NCBI RefSeq assembly: GCF_004917065.1
Contig: NZ_SSYA01000003.1
Span: 124,001 to 188,000, forward strand
DNA from: Geomonas ferrireducens
GTDB taxonomy: Bacteria; Desulfobacterota; Desulfuromonadia; Geobacterales; Geobacteraceae
DNA length: 64,000 bases
Direction of reading: 5' to 3'
Below the pieces are notes generated by a model that ran no database searches, was not told the origin of the DNA, and was given only the letters and a program-made list of their open reading frames with translations. Shown in pieces: positions 13,127 through 63,101 of this stretch. A program made the translations under genes and the position numbers. How positions within the stretch are numbered: position 1 is the stretch's first letter; each line of letters starts with the position of its first letter.

Positions 13127-14041
13127 TTACAAAAGGTCGAAGGTCTTGCTCAGTTTCAACTCGATGCGGTACCCCTCGGACGGAGTATTGGCTTCATACC
13201 AGCGGGCGAAGGGGAACATGGCCGCCAGTCCCGCCGCGAAGCCGCCGGGCTTGTACTTGAACGCCACCTTGGGCCCGGCATACCACTCGTTCTTGGAGTC
13301 GTTCTGACTCTTGCCGTCCTTCTCGCTGCTGGCGTTCCAGTCGAACTGCGATTCAGCCCCCATGTCGAAATACTCGTTCACGGCATAGCCCCAGGCGCTG
13401 GTGCTCCTTATGTAGGTCGGCTTGCGGTAGGAGTGGGAGCCTTCGGTGAAGGTGTAGACGTGGATCTCCTGGTCGAGGCGGTGCGACCCGGTCGAGTAGG
13501 TGAGGCCCACGGCGCCGCCGGTGCCCCAGGCACCGTTGCCGACAAAGTCGACGCTCTTGCTGTTGACGTCCGTCGTCGGCACCACGAGGCCTACGTCGAC
13601 CGCCAGGTCGAAAAGCGACCCTTTGGATTGGTTCATCAGCACCTTGTGCAAGGCGATGGCGGTGTCGCCTATCCACCCCAGATGCTCCCCTGCGCCGGTC
13701 ACGTTGTTCTTCTTGTAGACATCGTAAAGTGGGGTTGCCGTGCGGACGTCGAGACCTTCGATAATGCCGTAGCGCAGTTTCACCACCCCGACATTCTTGG
13801 TCAGCTTCACGTTTTCGTTCACTTCGTTGCTTCCCTTGCGGATGCCGTCGGTCTCACAGTACTGGTAATTGAGAAGGACGCCGAGCTTCCCCACCGGGAA
13901 CCCGGTGCCGGCGGGGCCGAAGGCCGAGATGGTCGGCCCGAAGGGGCGGGGGGCGGCGGGGGCATCGGCGCCCCAAGATAGGCCGGCGCAGGTGCAAAGT
14001 GCCACGAGGGAAAGCGGGATGATGCGCTTGCTGAATTTCAT
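13127..14041 (-). CDS. Outer-membrane channel, MetA-pathway (phenol degradation) transporter-like
   Basis: A 304-residue protein with a signal peptide (to LSWGADAPA) and alternating amphipathic strands throughout, in the style of the Phenol_MetA_deg barrel family linked to uptake of aromatic compounds. Recognisable pieces are KLGVLLNYQYCETDGIRKG, LRYGIIEGLDVRTATPLYDVY and the C-terminal RIELKLSKTFDLL. It is the last gene of the run dsbL-dsbI-assT-tlpA-ccdA-rhodanese, 34 bases after the rhodanese gene. Its plausible job there is to admit aromatic sulfate esters or phenols (inference). Confidence 0.7.
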   Translation of the reverse strand: MKFSKRIIPLSLVALCTCAGLSWGADAPAAPRPFGPTISAFGPAGTGFPVGKLGVLLNYQYCETDGIRKGSNEVNENVKLTKNVGVVKLRYGIIEGLDVRTATPLYDVYKKNNVTGAGEHLGWIGDTAIALHKVLMNQSKGSLFDLAVDVGLVVPTTDVNSKSVDFVGNGAWGTGGAVGLTYSTGSHRLDQEIHVYTFTEGSHSYRKPTYIRSTSAWGYAVNEYFDMGAESQFDWNASSEKDGKSQNDSKNEWYAGPKVAFKYKPGGFAAGLAAMFPFARWYEANTPSEGYRIELKLSKTFDLL

Positions 14042-14075
14042 GACTTACTCCTTCGATCTGTGTCGCGTCGGTTGC

Positions 14076-14513
14076 TTACCGAACTGCGGTGAATGAAGCG
14101 TTGTCCTGCGGAAAAGGCACCAGCCTGACGCCTGCCTCTTTCGCCCTGGTCACCCCGCCGTCGACGTTCGTCACCGAGGTGAAGCCGTGATGCGCGAGGT
14201 ACCGGCTGACCTTGTCGGAACGGTTCCCTGTCCTGCAGATGATGGCGATCCTATCGTTGGGGGTGACGTAGCGCTTGAGCTTGGCCAGAAAGGCCTCGGC
14301 ATCGTAGCTCTTGTCCTCCCGGAAAAAGGTGAGGCCGAGGGCGCCCTTCACGACGCCGGTTTCCCGCCATTCTTTTTCCGTGCGGATGTCGATGATTTTC
14401 ACTCCTGACGAGAGAAGCTCCGGAGTGAGGGGGGCGTAGCGGACCTGGTTGGCGGCCTGGGCGGCCAGACTGCTGAGGATCAGGAGGGAGACGGTAAGGA
14501 TGAAAGTTCTCAT
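14076..14513 (-). CDS. Periplasmic rhodanese-domain protein
   Basis: A 145-residue protein with a signal peptide (residues 1-20, ending LAAQA) and a single rhodanese domain: VKIIDIRTEKEWRETG, then the active-site loop ICRTGNRS, with the nucleophilic Cys in CRTGNR. Such proteins transfer sulfane sulfur or act as thiol-disulfide partners. It lies 25 bases after the ccdA gene and before the outer-membrane channel gene. A periplasmic rhodanese next to a CcdA/TlpA pair suggests a persulfide or thiol function tied to that reductive pathway. Confidence 0.85.
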   Translation of the reverse strand: MRTFILTVSLLILSSLAAQAANQVRYAPLTPELLSSGVKIIDIRTEKEWRETGVVKGALGLTFFREDKSYDAEAFLAKLKRYVTPNDRIAIICRTGNRSDKVSRYLAHHGFTSVTNVDGGVTRAKEAGVRLVPFPQDNASFTAVR

Positions 14514-14538
14514 GGTGATATGCCTCTTTACGATGGAT

Positions 14539-15291
14539 TCAGACGCCGGCCGGGAGCCACTGGTAGAGCACGGTGCTCATGGTGTTGAAGAGGCCGAAGA
14601 AGAGCAGGATCCCCACGACCATGAGCAGCAGCCCGGTGAAGAACTCCATCTTCCTGATGTGCGTCCTGAAGCGTTTGAAGAAATCGAGAAAACTGTGGAA
14701 GAGCAGGCCCGAGACGATGAACGGGATGCCGAGTCCCGCGGCGTAGCTCCCCAAAAGGAACATGCTTTTGCCGGCCGAACCGGAAGTGCCGGCGGCCATG
14801 GCGAGGATGGCGCCGAGGATCGGACCGATGCACGGGGTCCAGCCTGCGGCGAAGGCGATCCCGACGAGGAAGGTGCCCACAAGTCCGCTTGGTTTGCTGT
14901 GCAGCTGGATCCGTTTGTCCCCGAGGAGGACTCCGAAATGGAACAGCCCTGACATGTGGACCCCGAAGAGGAAGATCAGCAATCCGCCGGCGCGCTGCAG
15001 CCAGACGAGCCCGTCCTTCATGACCGACTGGAAGGTGGTGGAGGCGACCCCGGCGATAGCCCCCATGCCGATGAAGACCGCGGAGAAGCCGAGGACGAAG
15101 GTGACCGAGTGGAGGAGGACGGTCAGGCGCACCTTCCTGGCCGGGTGGGCTTCCTGCAACTGCCCGAAGGAGAGTCCCGTTATGTAGGTGATGTAGGAGG
15201 GGATCAGCGGCAGCACGCATGGGGAAAAGAAGGAGAGAAAGCCCGCCGAGAATGCGATCCAGAAGGTGATGTCCGAGCCGAAAAAGGTCAT
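14539..15291 (-). CDS. CcdA/DsbD-type thiol-disulfide transmembrane protein
   Basis: A 250-residue inner-membrane protein with six hydrophobic segments. The two conserved redox cysteines are in SPCVLPLIPSY (helix 1) and TPCIGPILGA (helix 4). CcdA proteins carry electrons from cytoplasmic thioredoxin to periplasmic thioredoxin-like proteins. Its partner is almost surely the TlpA-like protein encoded 13 bases upstream (15305-15808). It could serve cytochrome c maturation, but its place in the AssT unit suggests a local reductive role. Loop lengths and residues are typical. Confidence 0.9.
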   Translation of the reverse strand: MTFFGSDITFWIAFSAGFLSFFSPCVLPLIPSYITYITGLSFGQLQEAHPARKVRLTVLLHSVTFVLGFSAVFIGMGAIAGVASTTFQSVMKDGLVWLQRAGGLLIFLFGVHMSGLFHFGVLLGDKRIQLHSKPSGLVGTFLVGIAFAAGWTPCIGPILGAILAMAAGTSGSAGKSMFLLGSYAAGLGIPFIVSGLLFHSFLDFFKRFRTHIRKMEFFTGLLLMVVGILLFFGLFNTMSTVLYQWLPAGV

Positions 15292-15304
15292 GGCTGTCCC
15301 TCCG

Positions 15305-15808
15305 CTACAGCGACTTCAGGTAGCTTACGACCTGGGAAGAATCCCACGGGATCCCGCCGGTCACCCGTTGCCGCAGCACTCCCTTGCGGTCGACGATGAA
15401 GGTTTCGGGCAGGCGGTTCGCGCCGTAGCGCTGCTGCACGAACCCGCTCGCGTCGCTGAGAAAATCGAAGGCGAAGGGGAGCTTGCGAAACCTTTCCGGG
15501 ACCTTTTTCTCGACGTTGACCGCGAGGATCACGAGGTCCCCCTTGGGGAAGGACTTGACCAGCCGGTCCATGGAGGGCATCTCGTCGCGGCAGTAGGGGC
15601 ACCAGGACGCCCAGAAGTTCACGAGGACGATCTTGCCGCGGTACTGGGCGAGGCTTTTGCCTTCGCCGGCGAGGCCGGGGAGCCTGAAGTCCGGGGCCGG
15701 CGCGCCGATCCGGACCGAAGCGTCATCCTGGGCTTTGCCCGGTGCCGGCACGGCAAGCACCGTCAGGGTCATGAGGCAGGCGCAGATGTAGCGGACCAAT
15801 CGTTTCAT
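15305..15808 (-). CDS. TlpA/ResA-like periplasmic thioredoxin
   Basis: A 167-residue protein with a signal peptide (to PAPGKA) and an AhpC/TlpA fold: GAPAPDFRLPGL, the active site NFWASWCPYCRDEMP (CPYC) and the cis-Pro segment RLPETFIVDRKG. It should reduce disulfides or mixed thiols in the periplasm using electrons from the adjacent CcdA protein. It begins 97 bases after the assT stop, with a hairpin between. The pairing of this reductive couple with an oxidative DsbL/DsbI couple in one run is unusual. Confidence 0.9.
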   Translation of the reverse strand: MKRLVRYICACLMTLTVLAVPAPGKAQDDASVRIGAPAPDFRLPGLAGEGKSLAQYRGKIVLVNFWASWCPYCRDEMPSMDRLVKSFPKGDLVILAVNVEKKVPERFRKLPFAFDFLSDASGFVQQRYGANRLPETFIVDRKGVLRQRVTGGIPWDSSQVVSYLKSL

Positions 15809-15856
15809 GGTGACAACCTCTCTGATGCGGTTTCCGGGGTGGTGGAGTTGTGCGGT

Positions 15857-15896
15857 GCCTCAGGCTGAAGGAGATCCTTCAACCTGAGGCGTTTTT
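15857..15896. terminator. Hairpin between assT and tlpA
   Basis: GCCTCAGG (15857-15864) pairs with CCTGAGGC (15883-15890), extended inward by TGAAG/CTTCA. The T-run is on the plus-strand side, whereas the flanking genes run on the minus strand. It may therefore be an RNA stability or partial-termination hairpin rather than a full stop. Confidence 0.5.
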
Positions 15897-15905
15897 GCAG
15901 GGTGA

Positions 15906-17786
15906 TTACTTGTTGGTGAAGGCCTTGTCCACGCTGAACGGCATGGCCTGGTAGCCGGTCGTATCTTTAAGCTGGATCTCGACCGCCGGCTCTTTCTCGC
16001 CGTAGTTGAACTCCATGATGTACGGGTTCGGGTCGGTCTTGAATGCGCCGGTGGTGATGTCGAAATCGGCGCCGGCGGTCGCCGAGTAGACGAACACGGA
16101 GTCCTTGTCGGTCTGGTATTCGGTGAGCGAGGTCACCGGGCTGTACCAGCCGTTGCCGCGCTCTTTGCCGAATTCCCAGATCTGCTCGACGGTCATCTTC
16201 TTCTGGTCGATCTTGTAGATGACGGCGCGGGAGTATTTCATGCTCGGCAGGGCGGGCTGCTCCATGCCGCGGCTGTCGCCGTTGTCGAAGACGCTCACGT
16301 AGATGATGTCACCCTTGGACTTGCTGTCGATCTTGAACGCGGTGTGCTGCGTCCAGGTCCAGTCGAAACCACCCTCTTCGTTCTCGTAACCGGGGCACTT
16401 GGAGCCGCCTGCCTCGCATACGATCTTGTTACCCTTGGAATCGACAGGGGTCAGGAACTTGCCCTGGTATTCCTTCTTCCACCCCTCGGGGCTGCCCATG
16501 ATCCACTTCACCTGCTTGTCACGGCCGATCTTGACGACCGCCGACTGGTGGCGGGAGCTGATGATGATGGAATCGTCCTCGGCGTCATGGTCGACGCTGT
16601 TCACGTGCGCCCAGTTCCTGCCCGGTCCGACGCCGACGATGTCGCCGAACTTGTCGCTCGCGTCCTGCTTGGCGAGTTCCTCGGCGCTCATGGTGTGGCC
16701 TGCCTTGCTGGCGTCGATGTTGAGGCACACGGCACCCTGGTCGAGCACCTTCATGTTGACGTCGCGATACGGGTCGAGAATGTCGAAGAGGCGCCACTCG
16801 TCCTTGACGAGGCCGGTGTCAGGCTCGACCTCGATGATCACGTCGCGCACGGTGCGCACGTTTCTGCCGTCGGCGCGCTTCAGGTTGGAGCTCGCCACGC
16901 GGAGGAAGTAGTTGCCGTTGGGGGAGTTGTCCATGGAGTGGGAGAAGTCGTTGTAACCGGCGGGAAGCTCGCGGTTGAAGACTTCCTTGCCCATGATGTC
17001 GTACTTCACGTAGCGCTGGCCGAAGCCCCAGCTCATGGCACCGTCGTTGTTCTGCTTGAAGCCCATCATGACGCCCGCGTTGTAGATCGACTTCAGATCG
17101 TAGATGGTGTCGGGTTTCATGTACCAGCGGACTTCGCCCTTGGTGTCGACGATGAAGTTCTGCGGGTAGTAGTTCCACTCAAGTGCGCCGCCGGTCGGGT
17201 TGTTCCAGACCGCCCTGGTCCCTTTGCCCGCCTTGTGCAGGAAGTTGTTCACGAAATAAAGTCGGTCGCTGAACTTCTTGTCCACCTTTTTGACGTTAGC
17301 CCCGGAGAAGAGGGCGGCCTTCAGCGTCTTGGTGGCGTTCGGCTCGGAATACACCGGGGGGGCGTAGAGGGTGTAGCTTTCCTTGGCGTGCTCCCACTTG
17401 CCGTTGAAGAGCTTCGAGTACTCGACCTCGACCGTATTGACGTAGTCCGCATATAGACCGAAGACCGGGATGCCGCCGTGGGTCAGAAGATGCTTGTTGG
17501 CGACGCGGTACTTGATTTCCTGCCCGTCCGCCTTCGGGACGATCCGTACCGTGACGTCCTTGAGGACGTACCCGCCGTTTTTGATGATCGCGGTCAGGGG
17601 CGCGAGATCATAGGGGTTCATGACGACCTCGCCGAGTTTACCCTGAACCTGGTAGTCGACATGCGGGCCGCTCGCACCGCCGATGGCGAGCGCCATGGTC
17701 GGTACCGCCGCTCCGAGCATGGCGGAGCACAACACGAGCCGCGCCACTCTTCCGGTTTTCACCAATGCTGCTTTTCGACAGTTCAT
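15906..17786 (-). CDS. assT: Periplasmic arylsulfate sulfotransferase
   Basis: A 626-residue protein with a signal peptide (to TMALA). An N-terminal beta domain (residues about 45-150) precedes a beta-propeller catalytic domain. Likely active-site residues are His283 (DFSHSMD), His393 (WAHVNSVDHD), Arg412/His413 (SSRHQSAV) and His481 (WTQHTAF). The last corresponds to the catalytic His that is transiently sulfated in E. coli AssT. A Cys pair (C457 and C464, VCEAGGSKC) just before it matches the disulfide that AssT needs for activity. The enzyme moves sulfate from one phenol to another without PAPS. dsbI and dsbL lie immediately upstream, reproducing the enterobacterial assT-dsbL-dsbI set. Confidence 0.93.
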   Translation of the reverse strand: MNCRKAALVKTGRVARLVLCSAMLGAAVPTMALAIGGASGPHVDYQVQGKLGEVVMNPYDLAPLTAIIKNGGYVLKDVTVRIVPKADGQEIKYRVANKHLLTHGGIPVFGLYADYVNTVEVEYSKLFNGKWEHAKESYTLYAPPVYSEPNATKTLKAALFSGANVKKVDKKFSDRLYFVNNFLHKAGKGTRAVWNNPTGGALEWNYYPQNFIVDTKGEVRWYMKPDTIYDLKSIYNAGVMMGFKQNNDGAMSWGFGQRYVKYDIMGKEVFNRELPAGYNDFSHSMDNSPNGNYFLRVASSNLKRADGRNVRTVRDVIIEVEPDTGLVKDEWRLFDILDPYRDVNMKVLDQGAVCLNIDASKAGHTMSAEELAKQDASDKFGDIVGVGPGRNWAHVNSVDHDAEDDSIIISSRHQSAVVKIGRDKQVKWIMGSPEGWKKEYQGKFLTPVDSKGNKIVCEAGGSKCPGYENEEGGFDWTWTQHTAFKIDSKSKGDIIYVSVFDNGDSRGMEQPALPSMKYSRAVIYKIDQKKMTVEQIWEFGKERGNGWYSPVTSLTEYQTDKDSVFVYSATAGADFDITTGAFKTDPNPYIMEFNYGEKEPAVEIQLKDTTGYQAMPFSVDKAFTNK

Positions 17787-17845
17787 ACTGATCTCCTTTT
17801 TTGTTGTCGGGGGCGGACATGCCGCCCCTCACGCCGAGATTGTCG

Positions 17846-18553
17846 TTACGCCAAGTTGCCGGTGTAGCTGGACGTTTCTACGTGTGCTGCGGCTTGGCGC
17901 TTGCGCACCAGGGTGATGATCCAGCAGCCCGCCGCTACCAGAAGGGCCAGTAGGATGACGCCGAAGGTGATGACGGTGCACTGCGCCATGTTCATGAAGT
18001 GTGCGGGCGGCCAGAGGTACCACCCTTCGGAGTAGAAGTCGGTGATGGCCTTCTGCATGGAGCTCAGTTGCGCGCCGTCGGGAATGATCGGGTTGTCGTA
18101 GCCGCAGTCGCCCGTCGGCTTGAACCATTCCGGAGACCACTTGTCGAGCGGCAGGTGGAACGGGAAGGTGGGCTCCGGGGAGCACCCCTGCACGCCGAAG
18201 AGGTCGTCGCTGTGGGCGGCGTGGTGGATCTTGTTGAGCTTTATGCTGTAGAGAACACCCTTGAAGCTTCCCCAGATGGCGAACAGGTAGCCGGCGATCT
18301 TCAAGCCGGTGTTCGAAGGCTTGATGGCGGCGAGGATGCCGCCGAAGGCCATGGCGAAGAAGGCGAGCCTTATGTAGACGCACTGCTCGCAGGGCCTCAT
18401 GTAGAGCCAGATCTGGAACACCGAGTGGGCCAGGATAACCATGAAGAGGCTGAGCCCCGCCATGAAGATCCAGAGAAACCGCTTGTCCTGCCAATTGCTG
18501 ATGGTACCTACCGGGTCCGACCTGAAGTTGCCGATCATTTCTGAGAGTTTCAC
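17846..18553 (-). CDS. dsbI: DsbI (DsbB-like) quinone-linked oxidase of DsbL
   Basis: A 235-residue inner-membrane protein with about four or five hydrophobic segments. The first redox pair is in RPCEQCVYIRLAF, matching DsbB's CXXC loop followed by conserved Arg. The second pair lies in a long periplasmic loop (GCSPEP and TGDCGYDN). It should reoxidise DsbL and pass electrons to quinone. Its start is 11 bases after the dsbL stop and its stop 59 bases before the assT start, so the three are co-transcribed and dedicated to AssT folding, as in uropathogenic E. coli. Confidence 0.9.
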   Translation of the reverse strand: MKLSEMIGNFRSDPVGTISNWQDKRFLWIFMAGLSLFMVILAHSVFQIWLYMRPCEQCVYIRLAFFAMAFGGILAAIKPSNTGLKIAGYLFAIWGSFKGVLYSIKLNKIHHAAHSDDLFGVQGCSPEPTFPFHLPLDKWSPEWFKPTGDCGYDNPIIPDGAQLSSMQKAITDFYSEGWYLWPPAHFMNMAQCTVITFGVILLALLVAAGCWIITLVRKRQAAAHVETSSYTGNLA

Positions 18554-18564
18554 GACGCGTCTCC

Positions 18565-19227
18565 TTATTTGGTCTTCAGCTCGTTGATAAGCTTCAGCAT
18601 GCCGTCTATGGAGGTGATGTTCTTGGTCATGATGAGGTACTTGCCGTTGACGACGAAGCCGGGGACGCCCTGGACCTTGGCGACGTCATAGGACTGGTCC
18701 CACTCTTTCAGCAGCGCCTTGACCTTGGGATCCGCTTTTGCCTTGTCGAACTCGGCCTTGCTCATGCCGACTGCGTCGAGACCGGTCTTAAGGTAGGCGT
18801 CGGGGCCCGCATCCCAGCGCTCTTTCTTGTCGTGGTAGGCGGTGTAGTAGGCCATCTTCGCTTTTTTCAGCAGGGATTTTTCGGTGTAAAGATCGCGGTC
18901 GGAGAGGCCGGCCTTCTGGTCTTTCAGGAGCAGTACTGCGAAGAGCTCGCTACCTTGAACGCCGTATTTACCCTTGGTCTTCAGATGGAAGGGGCGGAAC
19001 TTGAGATCGCTCGGCAGCTTGGGAACCAGGTTCGGAGTGATCTTTTTGTCGTACTTGTAGCAGAAGGGGCAGTCGTAGCTGAACACCTTGATCAGGGTGC
19101 CCTGGGCGTTCGGGATCGGTTTGGCGAGCTTCACGTAGTCGGTCCCTTCGGTGAAGGCGAAGCTGGTTGCGGCGAAAAGGGCTACGAGGGCAAAACTTGC
19201 GGCGATTTTTTTGACGAATTTGAACAT
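18565..19227 (-). CDS. dsbL: DsbL (DsbA-like) thiol oxidase
   Basis: A 220-residue periplasmic protein with a signal peptide (to SFAFTEG). It has a thioredoxin fold with active site YDCPFCYKYD and cis-Pro loop GVPGFVVNG. The CPFC dipeptide is that of DsbL rather than the CPHC of general DsbA. Its surface is Lys-rich, another DsbL trait. It is the first gene of the run and introduces the disulfide into AssT. An AGGAGAGA ribosome site precedes the ATG. Regulation is not evident; no clear promoter is visible in the AT-rich region upstream. Confidence 0.9.
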   Translation of the reverse strand: MFKFVKKIAASFALVALFAATSFAFTEGTDYVKLAKPIPNAQGTLIKVFSYDCPFCYKYDKKITPNLVPKLPSDLKFRPFHLKTKGKYGVQGSELFAVLLLKDQKAGLSDRDLYTEKSLLKKAKMAYYTAYHDKKERWDAGPDAYLKTGLDAVGMSKAEFDKAKADPKVKALLKEWDQSYDVAKVQGVPGFVVNGKYLIMTKNITSIDGMLKLINELKTK

Positions 19228-48430: not shown

Positions 48431-51400
48431 TTAGGGGACTTCTACAATGACAGACTGCGAGGAGACCAGGGTCGACCCGTTGAACAGCTGGATCGTGGTC
48501 TTGAAGGTGTACTTGCCGGTACCGGACTTGAAGTACTTCTCGTAGCGGTTGTACACGTGAGCCACGCCGCCTGCACCGTTGGCCGTTGCGAAGTCGGCAG
48601 CGGTAAGGGTGGTGGAGGAGCTGCCGTCACCCCAGAAGAACCTGACCTTGTCGTAGGTGGTGCCTGCGACGACGGTTACCGGCACCTTGGTTTCCTGCAC
48701 GGTGTAGGTGTATGCCGGCCTGGTGGCGGTCGCCGCGATGGTCTTGACGACGGGGGCGGTGGCCGTGCCGGTTACGGAGATCAGTACCGGGTTTGTGACG
48801 TTGACGAGCTTGTAGCTGGTTGCGGTAGCGCCGTCGACGTTGGTCACGGTAAGGGCGACCCTGTAGGTGCCGGCCTTGTTGAAGCTGATGCTGGTGCTTG
48901 CTGCGGTTGCGTCGGTGATGCTCGCTGCGGTGCCGGCGTTGGTAGCCCACTGGAACCTGGCGCCTGCAGCCGGTGTGCCGGTGGCTGCGATGGCGTAGGA
49001 GAGGTCCTTGACCAGCGGAGCCGCGGTGGTGCCCGACTCGCCGTTCACTGCTGCGATGCCGGCTACCGGGGTGGCGCCGACGCCGAAGGCCGACGCGGTG
49101 ATGCTGTTCAGGTAGGTTACGTACTGGGCGCGGGTTGCATAGCTGTTGGCGCCACGAACGATCGGGGCGGTTTTCCAGAGAGCGCCCTTCAGGCCGAACG
49201 GACCCACGTCGGAGAGCTTGTTGATGCGGATCTGGTAGCCGGCAGCGGCGTCCAGCTTCACGCCGCCGTTGGCGGCGGTGACGGTGAAGAAGGTGCTGCC
49301 GAATTTACCGGCGTTGTCAAGCAGGGTTACCAGCTGGTCAACGGTGGTCACCTTGTCGTCGGTGATCTGGACGGTGCGGCTGGTGATCACGCCGTTGCTG
49401 TCCTTCACGTCCACCTTGAGGGTCCAGCCGAGGGTGGAGGTGGCGCCCTTCTTGGCGGCGTTGAAGATGTACGCCGGATCTTCACAGTAGAACGGGCTTG
49501 CGGCGCTGCAGGCTGCCGCGATGGCACCGCCCTGGATGCTGGTTACCCAGTCCTGGTTGATGGTCTGGAAGGTGTTCTCGTAGAGAACCTCGCTGCGGTC
49601 GATGTTACGCAGGGTCTGCCCCGGGGTCGCGGTCTGAACGTAGGGACCGTCGAACTTGGTGAGGATCGGGATCGGCAGAGAGCGGGTGCCGTCTTTGGTC
49701 ACGACGTTCGGGTGCGAATCGGTGATGTCGACGAGGCCGTTCACCTTGGTGAAGGTGGTCACCTGGTTGGAGTCGAAGCTGAACTTGCCGTCCATGTTGC
49801 CGTTGATCGGGTAGGCGCCGTTGTAGAAGCCTGCGTTGGCGGCATGGCACTCCTGGCAGCCGTTCTTGCCCCACGCCCTGTCGGCGGAAGCGATGTTGTG
49901 GCTCGCCTTGAAAGGAACCATGAGGAAGGAGACCTTCGGCAGGAACGCGTTGGTCGCCTGGGTGGTGGTGTTGCCGAGCTGCCCCCTGATGCCTGCCGAG
50001 AGGGCGGCTTGCTGGGTGGCGATTTCGGCGGCGTTCACCACGCCGTCAGCGGTGAGGGCGTGCAGGCCGTTTATGCGGTTGATGTTGGCCACATGGGTCT
50101 GCAGCAGCGGATCCATGCCGGCCTCGCGGCCGTCGTTGTTGGCGTCGAAACCGCCGTTGATGGTCTTAAGGCCGTTCATGTCGCGCCAGAAGAAGGAGGT
50201 CAAGAGGTTGGCGGCGTAGATCTTGCCGTTCTGCCAGTGCAGCGCGACGCCGTTGTTCATGTTGCCTTTGGCGACGTACTCGGTGTCGTGGACTGCCAGA
50301 CGCCCTTCCTCGTCGGCGCCGGTGCCGTCGACGAACGCGCCGCCGCTGAAGCCGTCCTTACGGATGTGGCAGGCGGTGCAATCGATGAGGTCGATGTGGC
50401 TTACCTGTGCGCCCGCCTTATCGTAGGCGATCTTCGCGGTCAGGCCGGCCCTGTCGTGAGCGCCCTTGGAGTTCGGTGCGCCGAAGGTGGCGAAGGCCGG
50501 AGCGGTGGCGTACTCGTGGCAGCCGGAGCAGTCCTTGAACTCCACCTTGTCCATCTTGTTCCACATGGCGTCAAACGGAGAAGCGCCGCCCTTGGCGGGG
50601 TCGCACAGGCCGAGCTTGTTGTCGCCTATGTTGCCGCTCACGCCGACTTGGGCGGTGGTCCCTGCGGTAGCGCCGGTGCGCTCATGGCAGCCCATGCAGC
50701 CGATGGCGCCGTGGACGTCGAGGATGGTGCCGTTCTGGCTCCACATCTCGCCGCGCTTCTTCCAGTCGACCTGGTATTTCTCGCCGCCGGTCACGGTCAC
50801 TACGCCGGTGATTGCATCCTTGGTCTCGATGGTGTTGCCGAGGTGACAGGAGGAGCACTGGTTGGAGGTCGGCTTGCCGACGATCTTGTACTCGAGGTTG
50901 GCGACCAGGCCGGCCGGGGTGGCGGTTACCGAGGTCGAGTTGTAGAAGACGTTCACGCCGTCCTTCGCGGAGAAGGCCAGCTTGGAGCCGACGGCGCGGG
51001 AAGCGTCGAACTCACCCTTGCGGACCGCGTCCTTGCGCTTTTCCCAGCTGTAGTCGTTCTGGTGGCAGATGAGGCAGTCCATCTCGAGAACGCCGGTCTG
51101 GGAGTAATCCTGCACCACCACGTTGCCGCGGTTGGCCGGGGTGTCGTTGAAGATGTCGATCAGGGCGTTGAAGGCGGTGACTGCGCCGCCGAAGACGTAG
51201 TCGCGGAGCGACTTGCGCTTGTTGGCGTCGTAGGTCCCGGAGGTGGCTGCGCTGTCGTCGACCATGTATTCCATGGCGCCGCCGCCGACGTGGCACTCGC
51301 CGCAGTCGCGCATCTCGCCGGCCACGGAGTTGTCCGCCTTCTGGGCGAAGGTGGTCGCGTCGGTGAAGTTGTACGGCTCGTAGTACTTGGTCGCGCCGCC

Positions 51401-51952
51401 AACGAGGTTGGCCACCCTGGAGGTGCCGGAAGCAACCTCACCGAAGAGAACGGTTTCAAACTGGGCCGTGGTCGCGTTGTAAACCGCACCTGCACCGTCT
51501 TTGTACATTCTCGCCAACTGGCGAGCAGACGGCGGTCACCAAGACCCCACATGCCCGGGGCTCTGCACCCAGTTTTTACCCTGGGGGCCTGCGCCGGTGC
51601 GGAAAGCGTCGGACGAGTCGATGTTGAACGGGTTGAAGCCGCGGATCTCGTTCGCGCCAAGCTGTGCGTGGTAGGAGTGCTTTTCGATGTCGTCGTAGGT
51701 GTACTTGAGGACGCTCGAGGTGCCGGCGGCAGCGTCACCGTGGCAACCGGCGGTGCCGAAGCAGGTCGTCTTGATGCTGTAGGCTTTTGCGGAGCCGTCG
51801 GCGTTCTTGGTGATCGCCTGGCCTGCCGGATCCTTGAGCGGGATCTGTTTGTGGGCAGAGACGGAAGCCATCGCCATCCCCGTGCCGACCCCGATAAGGG
51901 CGGCGCAGGAAGCGGCGGTAAGCAGCACCGTCTTCTTGGTGGGTTGTTTCAT
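48431..51952 (-). CDS. Multiheme c-type cytochrome A with in-frame TGA (predicted selenocysteine), 1173 aa
   Basis: Read through TGA codon 139 (51536-51538), the frame encodes 1173 residues. Codons 1-138 give a signal peptide (MKQPTKKTVLLTAASCAALI), an atypical heme motif CFGTAGCH (CX5CH), SYHAQLG, and QSPGHVGSW just before the TGA. The same frame resumes PPSARQLARMYKDG. After it come seven CXXCH motifs (CGECH, CLICH, CSSCH, CMGCH, CSGCH, CTACH, CQECH). The last ~260 residues are PKD/Ig-like domains ending SSQSVIVEVP. The downstream part alone has no signal peptide or convincing ribosome site. The ATG at 51952 follows AAAGGAG at good spacing; an ATG at 51955 is also possible. Likely a periplasmic or outer-surface electron carrier. 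Confidence 0.85.
51495..51538 (-). promoter_or_regulatory. Candidate bacterial SECIS element of cytochrome A
   Basis: Sixteen bases after the TGA begins loop AGTT, closed by a 6-bp stem CTCGCC (51525-51520) / GGCGAG (51515-51510). A lower stem CCGTCT (51532-51527) / AGACGG (51500-51495) encloses it. Distance, a G in the first two loop bases and small loop fit the general bacterial SECIS model. Confidence 0.7.
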
Positions 51953-52265
51953 CATGGGTCTCCTTTGTCTCGATTCAATGGAAGTACGAATCACATCTTG
52001 CGTCCGGTATGGGGGTACCGTTCGCCATCTGCAGTCCTGCTTCAGCTTTAGAGAGCCTGGATTCATCATTAGCACGGGGTGTGCCGCTATTTTATTTTTC
52101 TCACTAAATTTTTAAAACAGTAGTAATTGCTAAAACTTCCGTGACGCGTTTCATTGGGACGACAGGGGGGGCGGAAGGGGATGGGGTGTTTGTTGGGGTA
52201 AATACCCCAAGTTCACCCAGTGACTGGGGGGCTTTTACCCCAATGTGGGGGTAGGGTGGTGTAAA
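51953..52265. other. Upstream region of cytochrome gene A
   Basis: No gene. It contains the palindrome at 52193-52210 and further GGGG/CCCC-rich dyads between 52160 and 52255. A short AT-rich stretch near 52085-52135 may hold the promoter, but I cannot place it. Confidence 0.45.
52193..52210. promoter_or_regulatory. Palindrome TGGGG-N6-CCCCA upstream of cytochrome A
   Basis: TTGGGGTAAATACCCCAA, about 240 bases upstream of the cytochrome A start. The same TGGGG-N6-CCCCA layout occurs at 60841-60856. Probable protein-binding site, regulator unknown. Confidence 0.45.
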
Positions 52266-52328: not shown

Positions 52329-53357
52329 TTAGGCTTTTTCTATCTTTGCCTTTTCTCTGAGCTCCTTGAGCAGGGCGGGGATCTCCGCGCGTACCTTTTC
52401 GCGCTTCAGGTACTCCACGATTTTCGCCTTAACCTCGTCGAAGGGCTGTACGCTGGGCGGGAGGGCCTCGGTGAGTTTGATGATGTGGTAGCCGAACACG
52501 GTGGAAACGACCCCGCTGATCTCGCCGGGTTTCAGCCCGAAGGCCGCTTTTTCAAACGGGGGAACCATGTCCCCCTGGCCGAAGACCCCCAGGTCGCCAC
52601 CCTTCTCCTTGCTGGGGCAGGTGGACTCCTTCCTGGCGATCTCGGCGAAATCTTCGCCTTTCTTGATGCGCTCCAACAGGGCCTCGGCTTTCGCCTTGGC
52701 CTCGTCCTTTTCCTTCTGGGAGGCGCTCTGGCTGACGCCCACGAGGATGTGGCTTGCCCTCACCCTGGCCCCCTGCTCGAAGTACTTGGTACGGTTGTCG
52801 TCGTAGAACTTCTTCGCATCGCTTTCCGCCACCTGCACCTTGGAGCCGAAGCGGACTTCGATCATGTTGTTGATGGCGATGTCCTTGCGGGTGAATTCCT
52901 CAAGGTCCTTAGGGCTCATGAGCAGCTCGTCCATGGCGGCCTTGTATTCGGCGTCGCTCTTGAACTTCGCTCGGTTCTCGGCGAGGGCCTTCTTCACCTG
53001 CTGGTCCAGGTCCTTCATCTCGACCCCCTTAGACGCCTGGTACAAGAGCTCCGAATCGGTGAGTTGCTCGAGGATGGTGTCCTGCGCCTTCTTGAGCGCT
53101 TCGGGGACGAGTTGCTTGGTGCCGGTCTGCTTCAGCATGATTTTCAGGGCGCGGTTGACTTCCTTGCGGATGATCGGCGTGCCGTTCACCTTCACCAGCG
53201 TCTCGTCGGGTGACGGCTGCGCCGCCTGCGCTGCCTTGGCCGCCAGGGCCGCGGCGTCTTTGACTGTGGCCTCTTCCGCAAACGATGCACCTGCGCCCAT
53301 GGTCATGAGCATGATTGCGGCAACGGTGGACGATACGATCTTCTTCGGGTGCGGCAT
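52329..53357 (-). CDS. Periplasmic parvulin-type peptidyl-prolyl isomerase (SurA/PrsA-like)
   Basis: A 342-residue exported protein with signal peptide (to GASFA). An N-terminal SurA-like helical chaperone region (about 50-190: VKVNGTPIIRKEVNRALK, ILEQLTDSELLYQ) is followed by a rotamase domain (about 195-300: VRASHILVGVSQSASQKE, GGDLGVFGQGDMVPPFEKAAFGL, FGYHIIKLTE) with the conserved His residues. A Lys-rich C-terminal helix follows. It assists folding of exported proteins. Sitting between the two large cytochrome genes on the same strand, it is probably their dedicated foldase, though it has its own terminator. Confidence 0.9.
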   Translation of the reverse strand: MPHPKKIVSSTVAAIMLMTMGAGASFAEEATVKDAAALAAKAAQAAQPSPDETLVKVNGTPIIRKEVNRALKIMLKQTGTKQLVPEALKKAQDTILEQLTDSELLYQASKGVEMKDLDQQVKKALAENRAKFKSDAEYKAAMDELLMSPKDLEEFTRKDIAINNMIEVRFGSKVQVAESDAKKFYDDNRTKYFEQGARVRASHILVGVSQSASQKEKDEAKAKAEALLERIKKGEDFAEIARKESTCPSKEKGGDLGVFGQGDMVPPFEKAAFGLKPGEISGVVSTVFGYHIIKLTEALPPSVQPFDEVKAKIVEYLKREKVRAEIPALLKELREKAKIEKA

Positions 53358-53509: not shown

Positions 53510-56500
53510 TTACTGTACTTCTACCTTCACAGACTGCGAGCTGACCAGGGTCGACCCGTTGAACAGCTGGATCGTGGTCTTGTAGGTGTACTTGTTGGTA
53601 GTAGCGTTCAGGTACTTGCTGTACCGGTTGTACACGTGCGCCACGCCGCCTGCACCGTTGGCCGTTGCGAAGTCTGCAGCGGTGAGGGTGGTGGAGGAGC
53701 TGCCGTCACCCCAGAAGAACCTGACCTTGTCGTAGGTCGGGGGGGTAAGCGTGAAGGTTACCGGCACCTGGGTCTGCTGTACGGTGTAGCTGTAAGCCGG
53801 CCTGGTGGCGGTGGCAGGGATGGTAGTGGTGACCGGTGCGGTGGTGGTGCCGGTTACTGCGATGTACACCGGGTTGGCTACGTTGACGAGCTTGTAGCTG
53901 GTTGCGGTAGTGCCGTCGACGTTGGTCACGGTAAGGGCGACCCTGAAGGTGCCGGCCTTGGTGAAGGTGATGCCGGTGTTTGCTGCGGCCGGTGCGGAGA
54001 TGATCGCGCCCGGTACTGCAGGAGGAACTGCGGTGTCACCAGCGTTGGTTGCCCACTGGAATTTGGCGCCGGCTGCCGGGGTGGTGGCGGGGGCGAAGTT
54101 GTAGGAGGTCCCCTTGATCAGCATAGCTGCGTTGGTGCCGGTCTCGCCGTTCACTGCCGCGATGGTTGCGACCGGTTTCACGCCGAGGCCTGCTGCGGTT
54201 GCGTCGAAGTTTTGGGCGATGGACTCCATGTAATCGGCGTAAGCAATGCCGTTCACAGGGGTTGCGCCAGTCTTGATGCTGCCGTCGTCGTTGGTGTCTG
54301 CGATCTTGTAGTAGATGGCGCCGTCTTCGGGCGGATACAGGATGTCTGCACGCTCAAGATCGGTGGTCCAGGTGTAGTTAGCATCGCTCTTCTGGAACTT
54401 CACGGTGCGCGGCTGGCCGAGCTTGTTGAAGCCTTCGAATGCGGTGCGGAGGTCGCCGAGTTTCGCCTTGACGCGTACCGGCTCGAGCGGACGACCCATC
54501 AGGTTGCTGGCGGAGTCGAGGCTCGGGATGCCAGGGATGCGGGTGACGGTGCCGCTCGTCTGGTCGATGGAGACCTGCGAGGTCGGGTTGAAGGTGTGGT
54601 CGGCCGGGATAGCGGTGCCGACCATGTCGAAGCCGCCTTTGAAGAAGCCTGCGCCCGGTGCATGGCAGTCTGCGCAGCTCTTGCCTTTAACGTACTGCTG
54701 TACCGGCTTCACGCCGTGGGTGACCATGAACGGAGCGCCGATGTAGGCGAGTTCGGTCTTGGTCCAGTCCTTGCGCAGTGCTGCCGGTTTCATGCTCTCA
54801 AGCTGGTTGCGGTAGTTCTTGTAGTCGGTGATCTGGTAAGGCTCGGTGAAGTTCACCGCGCCGCTCCAAACGCTGACGTACTTCCAGTAGTTGGCCGGAG
54901 AGAAGGTGCCGTCCGGCATGAATGCGGAGCCGGAAGCGGTGCTCATCGGGTCGTTGAAGCCGATCGAGATGACGGAGAGGGCGGAAGGACCGAAGTTCAT
55001 GCCGGCCTTCAGGTCGCGCTGGATCCACGGGTCGTAGATCGGCTCGCCGTAGCCCTGGGTGTTGTTCTCGTGCGGCGGCAGGCCGTCGAAGACGTCGGTG
55101 TAGCCGACCAGCGAGGGCTTGGTCGGGACCAGGTCGCCGCCGGGGACGGTGTCGCCGTTTGCATCGACGTTGGAGTCGGTGTTGTTCCAGATGACTGCGG
55201 AGATCGCGTTGCTCAGGTAGATCTTGCGGCGGAACTTCATGCCGCTCTTGTCGCTGTTGCCGAAGCTGAGCGGCGCTTCCATGTTGCCGAGTCTCTGCCA
55301 GAGGTTGAGCGGTTTCCACTCTTTGAGCGCGCCGCCCACCACGTGGGTGCCGGCCGGAATGGGCGCCTGGTAGCCAGGCATACCTTCGGTAAGGCCCATG
55401 GCCTGGTTGATTGCTGCGAACATCTGGTTGTACTGAGCGACTGCGCCTGCGTTGAACGCATCGGGAGCCGGATCCTCGAACAGGCCGATCATCCCCTTGG
55501 AGGGATCGGTGCCGACGATTGCCGGGAAGCGCATACCGGAGGTGGCGTCGAGGGCGCGTACCGCCATGCTCTTCTTCTGTACGTGGCAGACGGTGCAGTC
55601 CATGACGTCGAGGTGGTTGCCGCGGCCGAGCTTGTTCTTGTCGGAGGTGAAGTTGGTGTGCTCGGGTACGCCCTGGCCGCCGAAGCCGGCCTGCTCGGTG
55701 TCGAACTTGTCGACGATCTGGACGATGTTGTTGTTCAGGCCGTACTGGGTGTGTGCCGCATCCGGGTTCGGCGCGCCGAAGGTCTGGATGGGGTTGCCGT
55801 AGTAGTCCTTGCCGGTGATGTGGCAGAACTCGCAGCGCTTGACGGTGTTGCGGGTGTCGTGCTTCTGAACGGCTGCGGCAATCTCGCCACCTACGGCGAG
55901 GACCGGCTTACCTTCTGCGTCGTATTCCTTCACGACCTGACGCTTCCAAAGCGGCGGAACGCCGTCCTGGGTGGTGCTGGACATGTCGAAGCCGCGGCCC
56001 GGGTCGCACTGGTTCTTGTTGGTGCTGTTGCCGGTGAAGTGGCAGCCGGCGCAACCGAAGGAACCGTGGACGTCCTGGCCTGCCTGCCATGCGTCGCCAC
56101 GCTTGAACCACTCTGCGCGCGGGAACGGCATGGTGGAACGCTTGAGCGCGTTCTGGTCAGGCATGGAGCCGTCGGAGTTGTAGTAGTAGAGCGGGCCGGA
56201 CTGGGCCGGGTTGCCGCCGCCCATGAAGCCGGTAGCGCTCGCAGGGCTGTAGAAGGTCTGCTGCGCCTGCACGTACGGCATGCCGGGCATCATGTACTGA
56301 GTGTAGTTGTCCATGGTGATGACCGGGGAGGACCCGGTGGACATCCACATGGCGTTGATGTCGAAGGAGGTCATCCTCTTGCCGTTGGGGCCGACGCCGT
56401 TGTTCGGGTCGAAGATCATCGGCGCGGAGGAGAGGAAGCCGCTGCTGGTGCCGGTGACGCCGAACATCTCGGGGAGATTCTTCAGGGTCTTGGTGGCGTG

Positions 56501-57760
56501 GCACTGCATGCAGTTGTTGGAGTCCGGCGCGCCCTTGATGCGGCCGAGCAGGCTGGTGGAGAGCGACACGGTCTGCATCCCGTTGCCGGCATCGGCGAAG
56601 GTCACGTTGCCGTTGTACTGGCTGTAGCCCATGTAGGTCGGGCTGGCCGGGTTCATGTCGAAGAGCATGGCGCCGGCGGCCGGCGCGGCGTTCAGGCTTC
56701 CTGCCTGGGTCATCACGGAGGACATGACGTTGTCGTAGCCGGAGAGGTGGCAGAAGAAGCAGTCCATCTCCTTAACGTTAGGCACCATGAGCTGCTTGGC
56801 GTAGACCGGCATCGCTTTGGTCGCGTCGCCGGGGAAGTTCGGGTTCGGCATGCTCATCGGCTGGCCCCAACCGCTGGGGGCGATGATCGCGCCGTTGTTC
56901 GGCTTGCTCGGGTCAGGCCTGTTGCCTGCGTAGGCCGGGTAGACCCACGGAGCGATGGTTGCGAAGGAGGATTCGATCCCCTGCGCGCTGAAGTTCTCCC
57001 ACACGGTGCTGGTGAAGGGGTTCACGTCGCCCATCGCCATGTCGGTGAGGGTCTTGTAGGGGAGCCTGTTGCCGTTTCTGTCCTCTTCGTAGGCGATGCC
57101 GCCCGGATGGCAGGTGCCGCACATGGTCGCCTGGTCCCACAGGGAGAGGTCGACTTTCGGGTACGGTTTGCCATCGGCGCCAGTGCCGCCGTTAAGGAAG
57201 AGGTAGAGGCTGGTGCCGGGGGTCTGAGAATCTCTTACCGCGTCGCCGGTGCTAGGAACGGTGCCCGGGTATGCGATGCCTTTGCCGTCTGCTTTTTTCT
57301 GTAAGTCCGCCACCTGGCGGAGCGAGGGGGTTCACCACTTGCCGTTGTGGCCGTGGGACTGCAGCCAGGGTTTCTGCGGGTTGAGGCCCGTCTGCTTGCC
57401 GTTCTCCATGAACAGGCCGCTGTCGGAGTTGTCCATCCACTCGGCGGTGCCGAGGGTGGCGTGGTATGCGCCCTTGGACATGTCGGTGTAGCTCTTGAGC
57501 CCGGCGGTGTTGCCCGGGGTGTGGCAGCCCATGGAGCCGCCGCCCATGCAAGTCTGTTTCGGGCTGTAGGGCATGCCCTGTTTGGAGGTCGGGTCCACCA
57601 TGACCGGCATGGCGGGTGCGCCGTACTGCTGCGCTACCTCCTCATAGGTATAAAGCTGGATTGCCGGGTGTGCCGCTTGGGCAATCGTCCCGCCTACGGT
57701 GAGGCCGGCTACCGCCGAGGCCCCCGCCAAAAGCGAGATTTTCAATCCCCTTTTTTTCAT
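53510..57760 (-). CDS. Multiheme c-type cytochrome B with in-frame TGA (predicted selenocysteine), 1416 aa
   Basis: Read through TGA codon 143 (57332-57334), the frame encodes 1416 residues. Before the TGA are a signal peptide (MKKRGLKISLLAGASAVAGL), an atypical heme motif CMGGGSMGCH (CX7CH), AYHATLG and LQSHGHNGKW. After it the same frame continues TPSLRQVADLQKKADG. Seven CXXCH motifs follow (CGTCH, CFFCH, CMQCH, CAGCH, CEFCH, CTVCH, CADCH), then ~280 residues of PKD/Ig-like domains ending SSQSVKVEVQ. Order and flanking residues match cytochrome A, so they are paralogues. The ATG at 57760 has GAGAGGG upstream. The downstream frame alone would lack an export signal and so could not bind heme. 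Confidence 0.87.
57306..57334 (-). promoter_or_regulatory. Candidate bacterial SECIS element of cytochrome B
   Basis: Sixteen bases after the TGA begins loop AGGT, closed by TCCGCC (57321-57316) / GGCGGA (57311-57306), a perfect 6-bp stem. The AGGU loop recalls the loop of the E. coli formate dehydrogenase SECIS. Spacing is identical to cytochrome A. Confidence 0.72.
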
Positions 57761-60856: not shown

Positions 60857-60996
60857 GTTTTTGTCAGGCGTTGAGGTTATAGGTGGGGCAAATCGCTCGA
60901 TTGTGCCCCGGGAGCGGGGCTCACCCCCGTCTGCAGGCACCTCCGGCGCTCTGGCGCAGGTTTTGCTCCGCTGCATTCATTTACGGCGAGGTGATC

Positions 60997-62385
60997 ATGA
61001 GTACCAACCTTTTTACCAGCATCGTGCTTAACCTGACCGACGGGATCTACGTGATCCAGGAGGGGAAGGCTATCTTTTTGAACGACCGCTTCGGGGCGAT
61101 TTTCGGCTACCCGAGCGTCGAAGGGCTGATCGGCCGCGACATGTACGCCGACGTCTATCCCGACCGGCAGAGCGTCGACCTGTTCCGCCACGTGCACGAG
61201 CAGCTCTTGAAGGGGGATCGCTCCGCGGTCTCCTGGGGGCAGCCGTCGGCGCGGCTTGACGGCAGCGTCTTCTGGATCGAGGTGGAAGCGCGTCTCATCG
61301 AGGTGGAAGGTAAACCCGCCATCTTCGGAACCTTCCTGGACCGCACCGACTGCAAGCTGATCGGCGAGGCGATGCATGCGACCCAGGAGACCCTGCGGCT
61401 TCTTTTGGACGCCATGGAGGACCGCGTTTACGTCGTCACCGACGACTACCGCATCGTCTACGCGAACCGCAAGATGCGCGAGGGGCTTTTGGGGGATCTC
61501 GAGCAGGACTTCTGCTACCAGGTCTGCCGCGGCCAGCAGACCCGCTGTGAGGACTGCTGCGTCGACGACGGGTTCTTCGACTCCGAGCGCCCCCTGCACA
61601 AGGAGTTCTACAACGAGGTGACCAAGCTTTGGTACTCGGTCATCGAGCTTCCCGTCCGGATGCCCGGCATCGAGCAGCGCACGAAGCTCGCCGTCGCCCG
61701 CGACATCACCGTGCGACGGGAGGCCGAGAACAAGGTGCGCGCTCTCACCCGGAAACTTCTGAGCGTGCAGGAGGACGAGAGAAAGCACCTCTCCAGGGAG
61801 CTGCACGACGACCTCGGGCAGCGCTTGAACGCCGCGAAGATCATCGTCGACGTTCTCGCCGAGGACCTCGCTTCCTCCCCGGGTGATGCTCCCGCCCGGA
61901 TGCGTCATCTCTCCGAGGTGCTGAAGGACAGCGTGCAGTCGATCCGCACCATCTGCGCCGGCCTGCGCCCCTCGCCGCTTGAGAAACTTGGGCTTGTCGA
62001 CGCCATCCGCCACGACTGCGACAGTTTCTCGACCCACCACGGGGTGAACGTCCGCTTTTCCGCCCATGGACTGGAAGGGGTGCGCCTCCCCCATGAGGGT
62101 GAAATCACCCTGTACCGGGTATTCCAGGAGGCGCTGCATAACGTGGTGAAGCACGCGCGGGCAAGCGAGGTGGCCATAAGCCTCGTCGTTTCCCACCCGG
62201 TGCTCAGGATGCGCATCACCGACAACGGCAGGGGATTCGATCCCGCTCGCGCGGTCCCCGCCGGAAAAGCGGGGCTCGGGCTCGTCGGCATGGCCGAGCG
62301 GGTCGAGCTTTTAAACGGCTCCTTCGAGCTCACCTCCCGCCCCGGGAAGGGGACGCGTATCGCCGTGGAGATTCCCATCGCCTAG
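60997..62385 (+). CDS. Soluble PAS-PAS sensor kinase, HisKA_3 type
   Basis: A 462-residue cytoplasmic kinase without membrane segments. The GAGGTGATC site supports the ATG at 60997. The first PAS domain is at about 8-125 (NDRFGAIFGYPSVEGLIG). The second, at about 135-250, contains an unusual Cys cluster (FCYQVCRGQQTRCEDCC), which could hold a metal, an iron-sulfur centre or redox disulfides. The NarX-type DHp H-box is SRELHDDLGQRLNAAK, with ATPase motifs ALHNVVKHA, DNGRGFD and GLGLVGMAERV. It pairs with the NarL-type regulator 41 bases downstream. The Cys cluster suggests redox or metal sensing (inference). Confidence 0.9.
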   Translation: MSTNLFTSIVLNLTDGIYVIQEGKAIFLNDRFGAIFGYPSVEGLIGRDMYADVYPDRQSVDLFRHVHEQLLKGDRSAVSWGQPSARLDGSVFWIEVEARLIEVEGKPAIFGTFLDRTDCKLIGEAMHATQETLRLLLDAMEDRVYVVTDDYRIVYANRKMREGLLGDLEQDFCYQVCRGQQTRCEDCCVDDGFFDSERPLHKEFYNEVTKLWYSVIELPVRMPGIEQRTKLAVARDITVRREAENKVRALTRKLLSVQEDERKHLSRELHDDLGQRLNAAKIIVDVLAEDLASSPGDAPARMRHLSEVLKDSVQSIRTICAGLRPSPLEKLGLVDAIRHDCDSFSTHHGVNVRFSAHGLEGVRLPHEGEITLYRVFQEALHNVVKHARASEVAISLVVSHPVLRMRITDNGRGFDPARAVPAGKAGLGLVGMAERVELLNGSFELTSRPGKGTRIAVEIPIA

Positions 62386-62426: not shown

Positions 62427-63101
62427 ATGGAAGGAAAAAGCAGGGTCATCATCGTTGACGATCACCCCCTGTTTCGTGAAGGGGTGAAGGGGCTTGTGGA
62501 GCGAACCTCCGAGTACACCTGCATCGGTGAAGCGGGAAGCGGCGCCGAGGCGCTGGCGCTGGCCAGGGAGCTGAAACCCGAGCTCATGACCATGGACATC
62601 TCGCTTCCAGATGTAAGCGGCATCGAGGCGGTGCGCCAGATCATGCGCGAGGTCCCGTCGGTGAAGATCCTCATGCTGAGCATGCATCCCAAATTCGAGT
62701 ACGTGGCCGAGGCCCTGAGGGCCGGAGCGCGCGGCTACGTGATGAAAGAGGCGACCAGTACCCGACTAGTGGCCGCCATGGACGCCCTGCGGCGCGGCGA
62801 GTACTTCCTGGACGGGCAGGTCTCGCAGGACATCGTGGCGAACCTGGGGAATTCCGGTCAGGGGGAAGCCACGGTGTGCGACGAACGGTACGCGCTTTTG
62901 TCCCCCAGGGAGCAGCAGGTGATGCGACTGGTCGCCGAAGGCGGGGTGATACGACAGATAGCGTCGGATCTGGGGCTCAGCGTGAAGACGGTTGAGAACC
63001 ACCTCACAAACCTCATGAAGAAGCTCGATGTGCACAGCAGGATGGAACTCGTGCGCTATGCGGCGCGTCTTGGGGTTATCGATCTGGAGCAGTGGAAATA
63101 G
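62427..63101 (+). CDS. NarL/FixJ-type response regulator
   Basis: A 224-residue regulator with a GGAGG ribosome site. The receiver (about 6-125) has VDDHPLFREGVK, phospho-acceptor Asp in TMDISLPDVSG and Lys in VMKE. The LuxR-type helix-turn-helix (about 158-220) reads LSPREQQVMRLVAEGGVIRQIA, then LGLSVKTVENHLTNLMKK. It is the cognate partner of the PAS-PAS kinase upstream. Targets unknown. A GC-rich hairpin at 63116-63153 follows. Confidence 0.93.
   Translation: MEGKSRVIIVDDHPLFREGVKGLVERTSEYTCIGEAGSGAEALALARELKPELMTMDISLPDVSGIEAVRQIMREVPSVKILMLSMHPKFEYVAEALRAGARGYVMKEATSTRLVAAMDALRRGEYFLDGQVSQDIVANLGNSGQGEATVCDERYALLSPREQQVMRLVAEGGVIRQIASDLGLSVKTVENHLTNLMKKLDVHSRMELVRYAARLGVIDLEQWK

Follow-up and report, generated by a model that had tools for sequence, protein, structure and literature searches.

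Selenocysteine (Sec) has already been described in multiheme c-type cytochromes of Geobacter: ExtKL (NCBIfam NF040886) was proposed as such a protein in 2007 (PMC1914089) and is treated again in PMC5877670 and PMC6148476, and a 2026 inventory of 119 families and subfamilies lists both ExtKL and a Sec form of an octaheme cytochrome (PMC13188914). The bacterial SECIS elements that accompany Sec codons have a small apical loop with a conserved guanosine (PMC1088965).

We analysed a stretch of 64,000 nucleotides from Geomonas ferrireducens (the window), which contains two large octaheme cytochrome genes, here called A and B, each with a single in-frame TGA (Table 1). The UGA in both genes is almost certainly decoded as Sec. 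As judged from the sequences, A and B constitute a separate selenoprotein family, comprising at least an A, a B and a ‘PGQFGAW-U’ subfamily and a clade with cysteine at the site. The original prediction had placed Sec at the TGA of gene A, where it would join two apparent genes into one. A conserved TGA, a hairpin and the decoding machinery now lend this strong computational support; the prediction covered only one of two sibling genes, and the TGA of gene B had gone unmentioned.

Table 1 Features of the cytochrome locus, in window coordinates.
Feature	Position	Strand	Details
Gene A, octaheme cytochrome read-through ORF	48431..51955	-	1174 aa, C-terminal PKD/Ig-like region
In-frame TGA of gene A, predicted Sec140	51536..51538	-	context ...WVQSPGHVGSW-U-PPSARQLAR...
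Hairpin of gene A, CTCGCC-AGTT-GGCGAG	51510..51525	-	loop 16 nt after TGA
Span closed by supporting lower stem of gene A	51494..51533	-	GCCGTCT 51533-51527 with AGACGGT 51500-51494
PpiC-type (parvulin) peptidyl-prolyl isomerase between B and A	52329..53357	-	Pfam PF13616/PF00639, E about 1e-30
Gene B, second octaheme cytochrome read-through ORF	53510..57760	-	~1416 aa from its ATG
In-frame TGA of gene B, predicted Sec	57332..57334	-	context ...WLQSHGHNGKW-U-TPSLRQVAD...
Hairpin of gene B, TCCGCC-AGGT-GGCGGA	57306..57321	-	own hairpin of paralogue
Sensor histidine kinase (PAS, HisKA_3, HATPase_c), recurrent neighbour	60883..62385	+	domain matches
NarL/LuxR-type response regulator, recurrent neighbour	62427..63101	+	domain matches

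The frame of gene A is open on both sides of the TGA, as originally claimed: a conceptual read-through over its full length meets this single TGA, which is codon 140 if counted from the earlier of two neighbouring ATGs and codon 139, the number given before, if counted from the later. Upstream of the TGA, the N terminus resembles a signal peptide by eye, and a CX5CH motif (C65, C71, H72) follows, in agreement with the signal peptide and unusual heme motif predicted for this part; downstream, all seven predicted CXXCH motifs were located, followed by the PKD/Ig-like C terminus. Gene B lies upstream of gene A in transcription order, with the parvulin gene between them. Its frame also has only one TGA, at the site homologous to that of gene A, and it encodes a CX7CH motif, seven CXXCH motifs and a C-terminal region similar to that of gene A. 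With seven CXXCH motifs, one CXnCH motif and a signal peptide judged by eye, each of the two products has the motif composition of a multiheme c-type cytochrome. The heme motif before the TGA (residues 65-72 of protein A, P0001, and 72-81 of protein B, P0002) occurs within the family as CX2CH, CX4, CX5, CX7, CX8, CX10, CX11 and CX14CH, an unusual spread for a single site. Over their C-terminal 230 residues (~48431-49120 and 53517-54241, minus strand), A and B are 73% identical and the remainder is far more diverged, which suggests that the PKD/Ig-like ends may have undergone recent exchange or conversion.

Relatives of protein A were found in 21 of the 141 genomes of the order, among them Geomonas oryzae S43, which has both genes, Geomonas edaphica Red53 and a Geobacter sp. 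assembly, and each order match that spans the site has exactly one TGA, in a local sequence of approximately WVQSPGHxGxW-U-PPSARQLAR. A combined A and B profile, run against 277 class genomes and a sample of 395 from the phylum, returned matches in 38 and 19 genomes, respectively. After removal of duplicates, 85 homologues cover the codon. It is TGA in 80 of them, TGC in three, TGT in one and GAT in one, and neither TAA nor TAG in any, with coding conservation on both sides of the in-frame UGA. The original prediction had asked whether homologues have Cys or Sec at the position, and had named an unrelated residue, or a true stop followed by a new start, as the outcomes that would speak against it. 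These were not found: the codon is never another stop, and no start codon preceded by a ribosome site is conserved there.

The residues around the site are strongly conserved. In the profile rows, G(-3), W(-1), P(+2), S(+3), R(+5) and Q(+6) are invariant; among the more distant Sec forms Y(-1) and A(+3) each occur once, and the Cys forms depart from the Sec forms at +2 and +3. A quick tree separates A, B, the ‘PGQFGAW-U’ group, a single long branch and the Cys clade, whose deep placement is uncertain because of long branches. The four homologues with Cys at the Sec site all belong to this one deep clade, so the exchange between Sec and Cys rests on few events. The single Asp (GAT) form is a paralogue that groups among Sec forms, and its genome has several Sec copies besides. 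It lies close to Sec paralogues (L114, G215:C19, reverse-strand offset 9758) and has a 6-bp hairpin with the loop AGCT. This paralogue perhaps represents a recent loss of Sec; with Asp at the site and the hairpin retained, it shows that Sec is not indispensable in every copy.

The hairpin originally reported after the TGA of gene A is present. In the folding check proposed with it, the TGA and the following 42 nt fold at -18.0 kcal/mol; shuffled sequences average -10.4 (z -3.06), and 1 of 200 reached so low an energy. Across both strands of the window, 2 of 1831 TGA triplets are followed by a 6-bp AGNT hairpin at this spacing, and these are the TGAs of genes A and B only. The upper hairpin of gene A is thus far beyond chance. 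The supporting lower stem, also part of the original prediction, is real in gene A and is no feature of the family, being absent from gene B and partly present or absent in the other homologues folded. By shuffle comparison, the folding energy of gene B alone is not significant, and against synonymous shuffles the whole-region folding energy reaches p < 0.05 in only 32.5% of TGA homologues, so it is a weak test here; the test of the specific hairpin is decisive where whole-region folding is weak.

For that test, codons were redrawn synonymously from each gene’s own codon usage. The stem is 4-7 bp long in the 80 TGA genes, with a mean of 5.76 compared with 0.95 under the redraw, and has p <= 0.05 in 97.5% of them. 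The loop occupies nucleotides 17-20 after the TGA in all 80 and reads AGTT in 47, AGGT in 30, AGTC in two and AGAT in one, giving a consensus of AG[T/G/A][T/C] with an invariant AG. Every TGA gene therefore has a hairpin just 3′ of the UGA with a small loop and a conserved G. Rare codons are fixed at +7 and +8: Leu is encoded by TTG in 47 of 47 cases and Ala by GCG in 75 of 75, and the codons used here would be expected at a mean frequency of ~0.15. Compensated changes in the stem are seen among the TGA homologues (for example CTCGACAGTTGTCGAG), and the four Cys homologues, with stems of 0 to 3 bp, have no such hairpin. Over 22 distinct sequences, the covariation score is 0.372 versus 0.105 when shuffled (0 of 500 shuffles reach it), figures that are not true probabilities because the sequences are related; structures slid along the same 22 sequences, a control that preserves relatedness, score at most 0.091. 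Taken at the level of sequence, the hairpin is conserved, as seen in synonymous-site constraint and covariation.

The machinery for Sec insertion is complete. The same genome encodes a tRNA-Sec (selC; 74.9 bits), selB (396 bits), selA (610 bits) and selD (359 bits), the last with its own in-frame TGA, so the absence of selB or selC that had been named as contrary evidence is not seen. It also encodes ExtKL, the known selenocytochrome, with its TGA. Comparison of two lists places selA in 37 of the 38 class genomes that bear the family, the exception being an assembly that is 78% complete. Because 234 of the 277 class genomes, a large majority, have selA in any case, this co-occurrence adds little and is consistent with Sec decoding rather than strong evidence for it.

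We considered three other explanations of the TGA. The locus could comprise two separate genes, with translation stopping at the TGA and restarting at a TTG or GTG codon in the hairpin loop. Codon +7 is indeed a possible start (TTG, GTG or ATG) in 78 of the 80 homologues, and the ORF list begins the downstream gene at this loop codon. However, it is TCG in the other two, and a Shine-Dalgarno-like site precedes it in none of the 80, in line with the earlier remark that the downstream part has no export signal or convincing ribosome site. A restart would moreover yield a product with seven hemes and no export signal, whereas protein conservation is strong exactly over the TGA (W-U-x-P-S-x-R-Q), the type of stop is invariant, the stem codons are under synonymous constraint and the Cys homologues read straight through. 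We rejected the loop NTG as a start on the two TCG codons and the missing Shine-Dalgarno-like sites, and consider the two-gene explanation very improbable.

It is just as hard to credit that the UGA is read as an ordinary amino acid such as Cys or Trp, or by general readthrough: one clade of homologues does have Cys at the site, but the genome has a complete Sec system, and recoding is tied to a local, conserved and covarying hairpin that the other TGA triplets of the window do not have. A lone TGA that splits a gene often signals a sequencing error or a pseudogene, and the original prediction had allowed for the former; the occurrence of the same TGA in 80 distinct homologous genes, and in two paralogues of this genome, rules out a sequencing error and makes error, decay or chance together negligible as an explanation. 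Decoding as Sec accounts for these observations with each of A and B as one exported octaheme c-type cytochrome: the UGA would be read by SelB and tRNA-Sec, guided by the hairpin with its AGNU loop 16 nt downstream, and selA and selD would supply the selenium chemistry.

The genes around A and B also recur. In a sample of 25 stretches from 24 other genomes, picked for holding A or B, the two types are no more than about 15 kb apart in 19 stretches, a kinase/regulator pair related to that of the window stands beside or between them in 12, and parvulin relatives are nearby in 10. The recurrent pairing and the kinase/regulator neighbours suggest that A and B may function together under a NarL-type regulator; they would then belong to a single respiratory system, in many cases under the control of the adjacent NarL-type two-component system. 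Elsewhere in the window, a minus-strand cluster at 13127-19227 encodes arylsulfotransferase, DsbA-like, DsbB, CcdA/DsbD-like, thioredoxin-like and rhodanese proteins.

Selenocysteine is costly, and usually catalytic where its role is known. In this family it sits in a W-U-x-P-[SA]-x-R-Q motif, ~70 residues after the first heme motif, and would adjoin the N-terminal heme. Five positions before it stands a His (A and some B), a Met (other B) or a Gln (the third group). Our guess, made with not quite even confidence, is that Sec at this heme is the residue with which an extracytoplasmic reductase reacts with or binds its substrate, perhaps an oxyanion, a metal or a chalcogen compound. Possible as well, if somewhat doubtful, is that Sec serves chiefly as a heme ligand or as a structural redox element of an electron wire, in which case the proteins would carry electrons and not be terminal reductases. 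The eight heme motifs and PKD/Ig-like C terminus are consistent with a wire, as is the adjacent parvulin, of a kind that aids folding of exported proteins; the position five residues ahead of Sec is occupied in most forms by His or Met, which commonly ligate heme, but by Gln in one subfamily, and the cost of Sec together with its usually catalytic role (PMC13188914) argues for chemistry instead.

If Sec is the reactive residue of a reductase, A and B might exemplify a widespread, unrecognised respiratory system of paired large extracytoplasmic octaheme selenocytochromes, in which Sec at or on the heme reacts with an external acceptor or donor and so constitutes a naturally evolved heme-Sec active site; we regard this wider proposal as rather unlikely. 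A free Cys in a CDPxxG motif (C451 of P0001, C586 of P0002) is found in 30 of 37 long Sec forms. This Cys may be a redox partner of Sec or a metal site, although the motif does not occur in all Sec forms. An AlphaFold2 model of protein A from eight input sequences has a mean pLDDT of 39, and ~25 over the heme region, which is too low for a structural claim on the proximity of Sec and heme.

The family adds a clearly supported set of predicted selenoproteins to metal-reducing and related bacteria, and would tie selenium supply to cytochrome-based respiration. It offers a testable case of Sec possibly acting beside a heme, for which naturally occurring Cys and Asp homologues already stand available as comparisons. 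Mechanical ORF calling splits A and B at the TGA, and the intact proteins are therefore likely missing from databases and from proteomics searches.

No family corresponding to A and B was found in NCBIfam (June 2026), where neither protein reaches a family cut-off, in the 2026 inventory (PMC13188914) or in the literature searched, which extended to neither most subscription journals nor any preprints; by these comparisons the selenoprotein family is new, and a prior report in another journal is possible. The headline of the original prediction, Sec in a multiheme cytochrome, is thus novel as regards the family, whereas Sec in such cytochromes was known already from ExtKL (PMC1914089, PMC5877670, PMC13188914). 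TIGR04315, the tetrathionate reductase family octaheme cytochrome, resembles A and B in being an octaheme c-type protein with a reported Sec form (PMC13188914). We rejected membership in it, since the matches listed for the two proteins at E values as high as 10 do not include it. Single-sequence searches of solved structures returned no match for A or B, and profile comparison with solved structures gave PKD domains only and a weak match to diheme NapB; for the heme part, these searches turned up no solved relative.

OmcZ, an octaheme nanowire cytochrome, has an enlarged CXnCH motif, and a parvulin gene lies in its vicinity. A and B share all three features, a likeness that we take as a lead only. 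To ExtKL they are alike in being exported multiheme c-type proteins of the same lineage, each with a single TGA-encoded Sec that splits the annotated gene. Membership in ExtKL was rejected (with NF040886, whose cut-off is 250 bits, A scores 10.5 and B is not listed), and profile comparison around the Sec showed no relation between the N-terminal Sec module of A and B and ExtKL. ExtKL has about 450 residues, five hemes and its Sec in the C-terminal part (GHSIPDG-U-PTPNR), whereas A and B, at 1174 and ~1416 residues, have eight heme motifs and Sec near the N terminus.
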